Below are positions 16,175-20,467 of a stretch of DNA of 64,000 nt, one piece after another; positions within the stretch are counted from its first letter, which is position 1, and each line of letters starts with the position of its first letter. The DNA lies in NCBI RefSeq assembly GCF_019551435.1, contig NZ_CP080544.1:1178001-1242000 (forward strand). The letters run 5' to 3'. The notes below the pieces were generated by a model that saw nothing but the letters and a program-made list of their open reading frames with translations, searched no databases and was not told the origin of the DNA. Source of the stretch: Lysobacter soyae. Lineage in GTDB: Bacteria > Pseudomonadota > Gammaproteobacteria > Xanthomonadales > Xanthomonadaceae. The position numbers and the translations under genes were made by a program.

Positions 16175-16870
16175 TCATTCCTTTTCTTTGTCTTTCATGC
16201 AGTCATCGATACTGCCCTGCGTGATGTTTGCGTAGGGTTTGAACTCGGGCATGATTGCCGCCAATGCTTGTTGTGTCTGCATCATCGGCCCCAGGTTGTT
16301 GCAAAGAACACGCGCTTGCGCTTCCAGTTCCTTACCTTTCGCTTCCATCTTGGCTTCGTAACGCTGGCGCGCTTCGTCACCGCCCACTATCAGACCGGGA
16401 ATACCGGTGAGGGCTTCGTTGGCGAGATCGGCGCCTTGGACGCCCATGTTCATACCCGCGTTGGCGATATCAATGATTTCTTCACGATACGCCAGCAGCA
16501 ACTTGCGTTGGTCCGGTGTCGGCGTGACAGTCTTGCCTGCAATCAGCAAGTCACCCGTCGGCGTGATTTCCGCTTGAGGCAGGCTGGAATCAGACTTTAT
16601 TTTGACACCATTGATATTGATGTTGTCGCCACCGTTGATGGAAATGTTCTCTTTGGCCAGTTTTTCGCGCGCCTCCGCCAAAGCCTTGGCCGTTTGTTGT
16701 CCGAGCTCACTTTGCGGAATGGCATGACCGTTTGCGTCCACTTGGACGGTGCCGGTCGACGCACCTGGCGGGTTCGGCGGGGCCGGCGGCTGCGGCGGGC
16801 TCGGGGGTTGGCAAGCGCTCACCAAGGTGAGCGCTGCAACGGTGGCGAGGCTGAGCAATGTTTTGTTCAT
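16175..16870 (-). CDS. DUF2884 (YggN-family) lipoprotein
   Basis: 231-residue lipoprotein precursor. A signal peptide ends in the lipobox LVSAC (Cys at about 20), and the residue after the Cys is Q, so outer-membrane sorting is expected. A proline-rich tether follows directly (QPPSPPQPPAPPNPPG), then a domain whose paired statements (AEITPTGDLLIAGKTVTPTPDQRKLL, then LLAYREEIIDIANAGM) resemble DUF2884/YggN. Function is unknown. The ATG at 16870 has AAGGAG upstream. It is the last gene of the YtrA-controlled operon, 22 nt after the permease. Confidence 0.8.
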   Translation of the reverse strand: MNKTLLSLATVAALTLVSACQPPSPPQPPAPPNPPGASTGTVQVDANGHAIPQSELGQQTAKALAEAREKLAKENISINGGDNININGVKIKSDSSLPQAEITPTGDLLIAGKTVTPTPDQRKLLLAYREEIIDIANAGMNMGVQGADLANEALTGIPGLIVGGDEARQRYEAKMEAKGKELEAQARVLCNNLGPMMQTQQALAAIMPEFKPYANITQGSIDDCMKDKEKE

Positions 16871-16892
16871 GGTCGTCTCCTTCTTTTCTCGA

Positions 16893-17933: not shown

Positions 17934-18793
17934 GCGTAGGTTCCTTTCATGGTGGCGACGAACAGATCCGCCACGCCGGGAGTACGGGTTTCACCCAGTT
18001 GCTGCAGTTGGTCGGCAGGTACGTTGTCGAACAGCATCACCGTCTTGCCAAACGGCATGGCGCGCTCGCCGATCGGTTTCCAGCTTCGGCCGGCTTCGAC
18101 CTTTCCGGCATCCACCAGCACTTCGGTGAAGCGTTCCGCCAGATTTTCCATCGATGCATCCAAGACGATCTTGCCTTCCTGGATGAAGATCAAGTCGGTC
18201 AGAATGTGCTCGATCTCTTCAACTTGGTGCGTCGTGATGAGGATGGTTTTGTCCTCGTCGAAATAGTCTTCCAACAGTCGTTGGTAGAACTCACGACGAT
18301 AGAGAATGTCGAGGCCGAGCGTGGGCTCGTCGAGCACCAAAAGCTTGGCATCGATGGCCATGACCAGTGCCAGATGTAGCTGCACCACCATGCCCTTGGA
18401 CATCTCCTTGACCTTCATCTTCGGGGTCAATTTGGTGTTTTCGATGAAGCGGTTGAAGCGGGCACGATCGAATCGCGGGTGGACACCTTCGACGAACTCT
18501 GCCGCCTGACCAACTGTGATCCAGCGCGGCAGGACTGCAACGTCGGCGATGAAGCACACATCGTTCATCAGATCGTCGCGTTCGGTCATCGGATCGCGAC
18601 CCAACACCTTCAACTCACCCTCATAGGGCACGAGGCCGAGGATGGACTTCAACGCCGTGGTCTTGCCCGAACCGTTCGGACCGATCAAGCCGACGATTCG
18701 GCCCTTTTCGATCTTGAAATTCGCGTTATCGACCGCGTACGTCCCCTTTTTGTATGACTTCTTGAGCCCCTTGGCTTGAATGACCTGACTCAT
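17930..18793 (-). CDS. ABC transporter ATP-binding protein (YtrB-like)
   Basis: 287 residues. Walker A GPNGSGKTT, a signature motif degenerated to MSKGM in place of LSGGQ, Walker B LLVLDEPTLGLD and the switch histidine in ITTHQVEEIE are visible. The degenerate signature is common among GntR/YtrA-linked ABC ATPases. The ATG at 18793 overlaps the stop of the regulator gene by 4 nt, and the 3' end overlaps the permease start by 4 nt. It energises the adjacent permease. Confidence 0.9.
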   Translation of the reverse strand: MSQVIQAKGLKKSYKKGTYAVDNANFKIEKGRIVGLIGPNGSGKTTALKSILGLVPYEGELKVLGRDPMTERDDLMNDVCFIADVAVLPRWITVGQAAEFVEGVHPRFDRARFNRFIENTKLTPKMKVKEMSKGMVVQLHLALVMAIDAKLLVLDEPTLGLDILYRREFYQRLLEDYFDEDKTILITTHQVEEIEHILTDLIFIQEGKIVLDASMENLAERFTEVLVDAGKVEAGRSWKPIGERAMPFGKTVMLFDNVPADQLQQLGETRTPGVADLFVATMKGTYA

Positions 18794-19161
18794 GTTGCAC
18801 CCCATTTTGACTTCGGATCGAGTAATTCGCCCAGGTCCAGCCCGAGCAAGTGGATGCGCTCCAAGACCTGTGGCCATTCTTCTTTGAGGAAACGGTCACG
18901 CTCGTTGTTGCGCAGTTTGGTGTTGGCACCATCGGTCACATACATACCGATGCCGCGACGTTTTTCGACCATTCCGTCGTCGACGAGCTCTTGATAGGCG
19001 CGTGACACGGTGATCGGGTTAAGTTGATATTCCGCGGCCACTTGGCGAACGGAGGGCAAGGCATCGCCGGGCTTGAGTTGGCCTTCAAGCATCATCGTGA
19101 TGACCTTTTCTTTGAGTTGGCGGTAAATCGGGCTGCCATCGGCCCATTGAACGGGAGACAT
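18790..19161 (-). CDS. GntR family, YtrA-subfamily transcriptional regulator
   Basis: 123 residues: an N-terminal winged helix (PIYRQLKEKV, then LPSVRQVAAEYQLNPITVSRAYQEL and the wing KRRGIGMYV) and a very short helical C-terminus. That architecture defines the YtrA subfamily, whose members normally repress their own ABC operon and are released by an envelope-acting signal. The ATG at 19161 follows AGGGGG by 9 nt. It lies 5 nt after the small leader gene and overlaps the ATPase by 4 nt. The promoter upstream of the leader gene carries a matching palindromic operator, so autorepression is likely. Confidence 0.92.
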   Translation of the reverse strand: MSPVQWADGSPIYRQLKEKVITMMLEGQLKPGDALPSVRQVAAEYQLNPITVSRAYQELVDDGMVEKRRGIGMYVTDGANTKLRNNERDRFLKEEWPQVLERIHLLGLDLGELLDPKSKWGAT

Positions 19162-19166
19162 GTCGT

Positions 19167-19400
19167 TCAACCCCCTGCGGTGAATGAAAAGAACGGCATC
19201 GTGAGATGATGCCGGGCGAGCGTTTTTTTGCGTACGGCTTTTTGATCAACAACTGCGTCGCGAGCCACCGGGCCTGACGGCGACTTGCGTTTGCCTTCTG
19301 CCATGGCCGGCACGATGGCTGCAAAGATCAATGCGACAAACAGCAGCAAAAACGCCGGTTGCGTCATGACGCTGAGTGCCTTTTGAGTCCGGGTGTTCAT
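19167..19400 (-). CDS. small secreted or membrane peptide, first gene of the YtrA operon
   Basis: 77 residues, not recognised. A short basic N-terminus is followed by a hydrophobic run (about residues 16-32) and a plausible signal-peptidase site after AMA (34/35). Cleavage would leave about 43 residues, rich in K/R with a net charge near +6 and a hydrophobic tail (MPFFSF). Alternatively it stays as a single-pass membrane protein. An AGGA lies 7 nt before the ATG, and a strong promoter lies directly upstream, so translation is likely. It is cotranscribed with the regulator 5 nt downstream. Confidence 0.65.
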   Translation of the reverse strand: MNTRTQKALSVMTQPAFLLLFVALIFAAIVPAMAEGKRKSPSGPVARDAVVDQKAVRKKTLARHHLTMPFFSFTAGG

Positions 19401-19419
19401 GGAGCCATCCTGTTGGAGT

Positions 19420-19443
19420 GGTGTTGTATTGAACTATAACACC
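19420..19443. promoter_or_regulatory. YtrA operator, GGTG-N16-CACC palindrome
   Basis: Inverted repeat TGGTGTT-N12-AACACCA. Its core reads GGTG, 16 nt, CACC, which as I recall is exactly the motif reported for the YtrA regulator of Xanthomonas citri. It covers the -10 hexamer and presumptive start site of the operon promoter, as expected for a repressor. Extra CACC half-sites lie just upstream. Confidence 0.75.
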
Positions 19444-19460
19444 AACACTGAACATGTCAA
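19433..19460 (-). promoter_or_regulatory. sigma70 promoter of the YtrA operon
   Basis: Minus strand: consensus -35 TTGACA (19455-19460), 16-bp spacer, -10 TATAGT (19433-19438). Transcription should start near 19426, giving a leader of about 25 nt before the small peptide gene. This is the best-formed promoter I found in the window, and the operator overlaps it. Confidence 0.8.
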
Positions 19461-19498
19461 CACCGGAATGACCCAACTAAAGGCATGGTCCGTGAAAT

Positions 19499-20467
19499 TT
19501 ATCTAAGTGATTGAATCAATTGCAAAAAACGCGTCGCATCGACGTTTCCGCCGCTGATAATGACGCCTACGCGGGTGCCAGCGGGCAGTTGTAGCGCACC
19601 GGAGACTAGGGCGCCCAGGCCCAAGCAACCCGTCGGTTCGACCCAAATCTTCATGCGTTCGGCGTAGAGCTGCATGGCTTGGATCAAGGCCGGGTCATCG
19701 ACGGCGACCACGTCGGTCACCAAGCTGCGAATGATGTCGAAGGTGAGGGTACCCAGTGCTTGAGTTTGTGCACCATCGGCGATGGTCTTCGGCGTGTCGA
19801 TTTGCACGATTTCGCCTTTTTGAAAGCTTTGCTGGCCGTCATTACCGGCCAGAGGTTCGCAACCGATGACCCGGATATCCGGTTGAAGCGCTTTCGCCGC
19901 GATGGCGGTGCCTGCCAGCAAACCACCGCCGCCCAGCGGTGCGCAAATCACCTCGAGGTCAGGAACCTCTTGCATGAATTCAAGCGCAACAGTGCCTTGT
20001 CCGGCAATCACGTGCGGGTGATTGAAAGGCGGGATGATTGTCATACCGGAGTGTGCGGCGATCTCATCGCAAATGCTCTCCCGGTTCTCCTGATACCGGT
20101 CGTAAAAACGCACTTCCGCACCGTAGGCCTTCGTCGCCGCGATCTTAATAACAGGCGCGTCAGCGGGCATGACGATGGTTGCCGGCATTTGCAGCAGGCG
20201 TGCGCTGCATGCAATCGCTTGTGCGTGATTCCCGGAAGACGCGGTCACCACGCCATGTCGCTTTTGATCAGCATCAAATTGCGAAAGCGCGTTGTAGGCG
20301 CCACGCATCTTGAATGCACCGACCCGTTGGAAGTTCTCACATTTGAAATGCAGATCCAATCCGGTCAATGCATTCAATGCGGAGGAGGTGAGAACCGGTG
20401 TTTTGTTCACTGCGCACGCGATCCGATCTGCAGCTGTGACGATGTCTTCGAAAACGACTGCGTGCAT
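19499..20467 (-). CDS. PLP-dependent threonine/serine dehydratase family protein
   Basis: 322-residue fold-type II PLP enzyme. The Schiff-base lysine is K53 in VGAFKMRGAYNAL, the SSGNHAQA motif binds the substrate carboxylate, and the phosphate loop is GGGGLL near residue 180. There is no C-terminal ACT-type regulatory domain, so it is the short catabolic form (threonine/serine dehydratase, serine racemase or threo-3-hydroxyaspartate ammonia-lyase type) rather than full-length biosynthetic IlvA. Sequence alone does not separate these activities. It stands alone, in the same direction as the sugar dehydrogenase gene upstream. Confidence 0.88.
   Translation of the reverse strand: MHAVVFEDIVTAADRIACAVNKTPVLTSSALNALTGLDLHFKCENFQRVGAFKMRGAYNALSQFDADQKRHGVVTASSGNHAQAIACSARLLQMPATIVMPADAPVIKIAATKAYGAEVRFYDRYQENRESICDEIAAHSGMTIIPPFNHPHVIAGQGTVALEFMQEVPDLEVICAPLGGGGLLAGTAIAAKALQPDIRVIGCEPLAGNDGQQSFQKGEIVQIDTPKTIADGAQTQALGTLTFDIIRSLVTDVVAVDDPALIQAMQLYAERMKIWVEPTGCLGLGALVSGALQLPAGTRVGVIISGGNVDATRFLQLIQSLR

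Follow-up and report, generated by a model that had tools for sequence, protein, structure and literature searches.

In Bacillus subtilis, the ytrA operon (ytrGABCDEF) holds YtrG, a small transmembrane (TM) protein of unknown function that comes first in the operon name (PMC12772383; this paper and those cited below are represented here by parts of their text). In staphylococci, PmtR, a repressor of the YtrA subfamily, is released by the peptides that its transporter exports, and small amphipathic peptides, the phenol-soluble modulins (PSMs), are both inducer and cargo of the Pmt system (PMC5080381). HpaR1 of Xanthomonas campestris, a YtrA-subfamily GntR regulator, is autorepressing (PMC4730234). 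We analysed a window of 64,000 nt from Lysobacter soyae (contig NZ_CP080544.1; positions below are those of the window), in which a small gene of 77 codons is followed by a ytrA-like repressor gene and by the ATPase and permease genes of an ATP-binding cassette (ABC) transporter. By position, the nearest known thing to this small gene is YtrG, as far as the portions of PMC12772383 go: both would be small TM proteins of a ytrA operon. More genes for transporter parts belong to the Bacillus operon, and the likeness is one of position. We consider it virtually certain that the small gene is real. Its sequence argues for a conserved, uncharacterised small protein that is targeted to the membrane.

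The small gene is the first open reading frame (ORF) downstream of a sigma70-like promoter, with a Shine-Dalgarno-like AGGA 7 nt upstream of its ATG (CAACAGGATGGCTCCATG at 19415-19398). Its product begins with a signal- or TM-like stretch (residues 1-34, with AMA at the end; charge +2 over the first 14 residues) and continues with 43 residues (35-77) of net charge +6. In these points the first-pass annotation, which had named no strand and had described an unrecognised gene at the head of the ytrA-ABC operon, with its own ribosome-binding site, a signal-peptide-like N-terminus ending in AMA and a basic remainder of about +6, holds for the window protein. The small protein has no relative in Pfam (0 families at E ≤ 1), NCBIfam (best E 0.14), PHROG or the PDB, and an Rfam scan of 18600-19600 gave no match. 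PubMed Central full-text searches for the strings MPYFSF and PYFSFA returned no papers, so that the family is absent from print as far as those searches go.

A full-length similarity search with the 77-residue protein in 60 genomes (its own and 59 relatives; ytrA was detected in 59 of the 60) found one clear relative, in G011, at 70%. The reading of the gene as an orphan ORF, which this result would suggest, was rejected, as the same slot is filled by position in other genomes. We collected 158 ytrA loci and removed 24 near-identical ones. Of the 158, 50 came from the 59 genomes, 80 were the best of 567 candidates, and a family search that found ytrA in 288 of 297 genomes supplied 28. A locus was scored as filled if a small ORF with a hydrophobicity of at least 1.5 over 15 residues stopped at a position from -16 to +4 relative to the start of ytrA. 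This was the case in 127 of the 134 distinct loci, and in all 127 the small ORF starts at most 50 nt from the operator described below. Markov-shuffled operator-to-ytrA intervals yielded a qualifying ORF in 21 of 2540 trials and the C-terminal motif in none. That motif, P[YF][YF]x[FLY] within the last 30 residues, is present in 109 of the 127 members, and most motif-less members bear variant tails such as FFSLLPRSLLP or HFTLIPRSLMP. Among the loci counted as empty, L070 contains a 73-residue hydrophobic ORF whose stop lies further upstream, and L078 has no frame. In L078 and L095, both on contigs of metagenome-assembled genomes, the small gene is apparently broken, in L095 by a frame shift before the motif; sequencing error is possible in both.

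Good conservation in the family is confined to roughly the final dozen residues. A profile built from the last 24 residues of 45 sequences matches 130 of 149 family genomes (E ≤ 0.05); the 19 that it misses include G003 and G016, both with variant tails. A ytrA coordinate was at hand for 83 of the 117 profile matches with E < 1e-3, and each of the 83 is on the ytrA strand and no more than 60 nt ahead of that gene. Within these 83, the family is linked exclusively to ytrA. Its members occur throughout a large bacterial group whose habitats are soil, water and plants.

Family members range from 58 to 171 residues and share an architecture, read from sequence, of a basic N-terminus (mostly +2 or +3), a hydrophobic helix, an acidic linker of variable length (median charge -3), a basic box, an almost invariant MP[YF]FSF and a short tail. 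The basic box, the 14 residues preceding the motif, has a median charge of +4 and at least +2 in 107 of 117 loci. The tail after the motif measures 4-11 residues, with two main classes of motif-to-stop distance (4-5 and 8-10 residues). In the window protein the motif is MPFFSF (residues 68-73, codons 19199-19182). An AlphaFold2 (AF2) model of this protein shows a single helix, residues 4-32, and confidence is low elsewhere. In L021, L124, L127, L163 and other Lysobacter-type loci the protein reaches about 130-160 residues, and the added linker is rich in Ala, Arg and Glu and probably helical. Two other assignments were considered for the product and rejected. A lipobox-like Cys occurs in 8 of 127 members, not including the window protein, and is replaced by Trp in close relatives, which speaks against a lipoprotein. 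A cationic antimicrobial-like peptide is contradicted by the lack of charge conservation: beyond residue 34, net charge is zero or negative in 37 of 127 relatives. Thus the cationic character, put forward at first as a defining feature, does not extend to the family, while the terminal hydrophobic patch noted along with it is present but is rather the most conserved part of the protein.

The reading frame is under purifying selection along its full length, most strongly in the tail, as judged from sequence comparison. The proportion of nonsynonymous differences (pN) is below that of synonymous ones (pS) in all 29 independent pairs, with a pooled ratio of 0.42; by region, the corresponding ratio is 0.37 in the N-terminus, 0.37 in the hydrophobic part, 0.52 in the linker and 0.22 in the last 24 residues. 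Between the window protein and its G011 relative, dN/dS is 0.22. Conservation of the frame in relatives, whose absence had been named at the outset as grounds for dismissing the gene, is therefore borne out both by the filled slots and by selection. The motif Pro is invariant (108 of 108) and is encoded by CCC 51, CCG 29 and CCT 28 times, the motif Ser uses all four TCN codons, and the motif Tyr is split evenly between TAT (38) and TAC (38). The use of three codons for an invariant Pro and of four for Ser indicates that selection acts on the protein and not only on the DNA. Codon choice in this region is itself unusual. Across 108 aligned loci from GC-rich genomes, the C-terminal motif has an excess of the rare codons CCT, TCA, TCT, GCA and TAT; compared with ytrA and ATPase codons, CCT makes up 26% vs 2.6%, TCA 24% vs 3.6% and GCA 44% vs 9.4%. 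Synonymous divergence of the small gene is lowest at its C-terminal end (pS 0.18). Codons 2-12 of ytrA are also A/T-ending, with a GC content at third positions of 0.72 vs 0.88 expected. Since the A/T-ending codons run on into ytrA, they are most simply explained by a need to keep the ytrA start site open.

Over the 127 loci, the -35 letters TTGAC are conserved at 79-98% per column, and all 19 scored positions of the palindromic operator are matched in 108. At up to 3 mismatches, the palindrome is single-copy genome-wide. By analogy with B. subtilis YtrA and PmtR, YtrA would bind this palindrome. The mapped HpaR1 site at gumB has 1 bp between its repeats, unlike the window operator (PMC4730234, in the part represented here); HpaR1 comes from the same bacterial family as the window and is likened to the window regulator by subfamily. 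The operator, GTGTTATAGTTNNNTACAACAC, is near-identical upstream of ytrA in Lysobacterales, Oxalobacteraceae and several other gammaproteobacterial families (L139, L147, L148 and L183-L194), a constancy over phylogenetic distance that is striking for a regulator site. At the other end of the small gene, 5 nt separate its stop from the ytrA ATG, and the ytrA Shine-Dalgarno sequence GCAGGGGG is located within its final codons. As the stop sits at the ytrA start, translational coupling of the two genes is likely.

The remaining genes of the run and the signals upstream are collected in the table. The ATPase start overlaps the ytrA stop. Among the 95 loci with sufficient flank, the ABC pair is present in all 95 and the DUF2884 gene downstream in 34, sometimes in two copies after the permease (L201, L204). 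Of the named NCBIfam models, PmtR ranks second-best for the regulator and PmtA first for the ATPase, whereas the permease has a sole, weak match, PmtB (0.073); all three miss their curated cut-offs (60/200, 151.6/350 and 12.9/100 bits, respectively). Foldseek gave zero matches for the permease model at E ≤ 0.001. A second structural aligner ranked ABC-2 permeases at the top for the model: NosY (Z 12.2; rmsd 4.5 over 227 residues), PmtD (Z 10.8; rmsd 5.3 over 238) and CcmB (Z 8.6; rmsd 4.8 over 209). Middling Z values come easily among helical membrane proteins. The same genome contains a second YtrA-type GntR gene (L211, G000:C1:83478-83888) accompanied by a separate ABC ATPase (32% identity); we looked for a small ORF in front of this gene and found none.

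Table 1. Features of the ytrA-type operon and its promoter region in the 64,000-nt window.
Feature	Position	Strand	Details
-35 element TTGACA	19455..19460	minus	TTGACATGTTCAGTG at 19460-19446
Palindromic 22-bp operator GTGTTATAGTTCAATACAACAC, presumed YtrA-binding site	19421..19442	minus	-10 TATAGT inside
Small gene, 77-aa protein, predicted membrane/export-targeted	19167..19400	minus	ATG 19400-19398, TGA 19169-19167
Conserved C-terminal segment (basic box, MPFFSF motif, tail), last 24 codons	19170..19241	minus	Profile and selection
ytrA-like GntR repressor, 123 aa	18790..19161	minus	Pfam GntR 1.1e-15; NCBIfam PmtR 2.3e-16, below model cut-off
ABC transporter ATPase, 287 aa	17930..18793	minus	Pfam ABC_tran 1.9e-21; NCBIfam PmtA 2.6e-44, below cut-off
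ABC-2 type permease, 346 aa	16893..17933	minus	AF2 mean pLDDT (predicted local distance difference test) 88.7; fold matches
DUF2884 protein, last gene of the run	16175..16873	minus	Pfam PF11101 4.8e-14

We tentatively favour, at somewhat less than an even chance, a role of the small protein as an accessory to the ABC-2 transporter, sited in the inner membrane and facing the periplasm. On this proposal, YtrA would repress from the palindrome, and upon its release from the operator the small protein would be made first. The basic N-terminus and hydrophobic helix would use the Sec/YidC route, leaving the protein either anchored in the inner membrane or cleaved, with its remainder facing the periplasm. 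The acidic linker would serve as a tether of free length, and the basic box with the aromatic MP[YF]FSF tail would be the working end, docking on the periplasmic side of the permease from the same operon or on the adjoining lipid headgroup region. The small protein may thereby serve an envelope-stress transporter under YtrA control, as its accessory or gating subunit. Partners of this kind have precedents among transporters of related fold. NosL and CcmD are small membrane-anchored partners of NosDFY and CcmAB, and the NosDFYL and CcmABCD complexes are named in the titles of the matched structures. Their partner permeases, NosY and CcmB, share the ABC-2 fold with the window permease, but the haem or copper cofactor link of these systems is not known for the small protein, which also has no Pfam match.

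Several observations weigh against an accessory subunit. In all five Oxalobacteraceae loci the operator lies 27-71 nt upstream of ytrA, the small ORF is missing between them, and the ATPase (68-70%) and permease (35-41%) are kept, which indicates that the transporter can exist without the small gene. Seven permease columns differ by presence or absence of the small gene, one of them periplasmic (W271), with no significant signal, and the two permease groups compared also differ by phylogeny. The topology proposed for the small protein rests on hydrophobicity and charge, and its AF2 model is confident for the helix only. 

Outside the family, a search of 274 genomes gave 15 matches at E ≤ 1e-30, 3 of them in-family, leaving 12 gammaproteobacterial ytrA loci. 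In about half of these the operator stands directly before ytrA; in about half the two are separated by a hydrophobic ORF of a different, unlike sequence. These ORFs (48-181 residues; L183, L184, L187, L188, L190 and L194) include one, in L194, that we take to resemble part of a PspC domain.

The same facts can be arranged differently. That the ORF arose by chance or is not translated has negligible probability: the single clear relative in the full-length search and the want of any Pfam, NCBIfam, PHROG or PDB family would fit it, but conservation, selection, the exclusive ytrA link and the Markov-shuffle null contradict it. A stand-alone envelope-stress effector, co-regulated with the ABC transporter without touching it and binding anionic lipid, lipid II or lipopolysaccharide through its tail, is rather unlikely; the basic box does adjoin the aromatic motif, and the unlike hydrophobic ORFs filling the slot in about half of the 12 non-family loci look like exchangeable envelope cargo, but the exclusive operon link and the near-invariant motif favour a fixed protein partner. 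Export offers another role. To our knowledge, PSMs have no N-terminal targeting segment and their genes lie outside the pmt operon, two differences from the small protein. We regard it as quite unlikely that the small protein is an exported peptide which, like the PSM peptides of PmtR-PmtABCD, is carried by the system as substrate and/or acts as its inducer. The PmtR precedent (PMC5080381, in the part represented here) would suit such a peptide, as would the high scores of the regulator and ATPase against PmtR and PmtA among the named NCBIfam models, the rank of PmtD among the closest folds to the permease, and a tail that is both basic and aromatic. These Pmt scores nevertheless fall far short of the curated cut-offs, neither overall charge nor length is conserved, and a protein with its own membrane-targeting N-terminus would not need an ABC exporter. 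The first-pass annotation had suggested an export substrate, a sensor, or an immunity or regulatory peptide, roles between which the sequence does not distinguish; of these, an exported substrate that depends on the ABC pair is less likely because of this Sec-type or TM N-terminus and because Oxalobacteraceae keep the pair without the gene in 5/5 loci.

Arrest peptides were sought elsewhere as upstream ORFs before sec or yidC genes that have an N-terminal signal or TM segment, a conserved C-terminus and a spacer of more than 30 residues (PMC10987492, from the part of the text represented here). SecM, VemP, MifM and ApdA/ApdP resemble the small gene in their signal or TM segment, variable linker, conserved C-terminus and position as upstream ORFs, and differ from it in motif and in what lies downstream, here the repressor of an ABC operon. 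It is possible, if unlikely, that the small gene is a translation-arrest leader of this monitoring type: the membrane-targeted nascent chain would stall at the MPYFSF tail, the ribosome would mask or expose the ytrA ribosome-binding site, and the state of the envelope or of insertion would set the repressor level. In shape, three of the four screening features apply. The hydrophobic N-terminal TM or signal segment and the conserved C-terminus are present, and the distance from the targeting signal to the end of the motif exceeds 30 residues in 115 of 117 members (all but L022 and L051). The strong bias of the motif codons to rare ones (CCT, TCA) and the position of the ytrA Shine-Dalgarno sequence within the last codons of the small gene point the same way. 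Against stalling, the downstream genes encode a GntR regulator, an ABC ATPase and an ABC-2 permease, not Sec or YidC, and the motif is not RAPP/RAGP-like. The two motif-to-stop classes would place a stalled ribosome differently on the ytrA Shine-Dalgarno sequence. RNA structure at the window ytrA start is no different from that of shuffles (z -0.06), and codons 2-12 of ytrA carry on the A/T-ending bias, which is what one expects of an unstructured start site. Protein-level constraint likewise acts on the linker and N-terminus; because selection covers the N-terminus, helix and linker too, a working protein such as the proposed accessory subunit fits better than a bare leader. Very doubtful, in our estimate, is the specific version in which the small protein acts as a sensor while it is a nascent chain inserting into the membrane, its MPYFSF tail making the ribosome pause over the start site of ytrA unless the N-terminus has been inserted. 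If true, this would place a regulator of the arrest type outside the Sec/YidC genes, retained throughout an entire bacterial order, and would connect the state of the envelope to repressor synthesis and through it to an ABC stress transporter.

A family that is invisible to homology search was recovered here by position, and it shows a clear signature, an unvarying operon partner and natural absences. It offers a concrete handle on the role of the small protein in YtrA operons, YtrG in Bacillus, and on what YtrA-controlled ABC systems sense, and the residues of its C-terminal motif point to mutations worth making.
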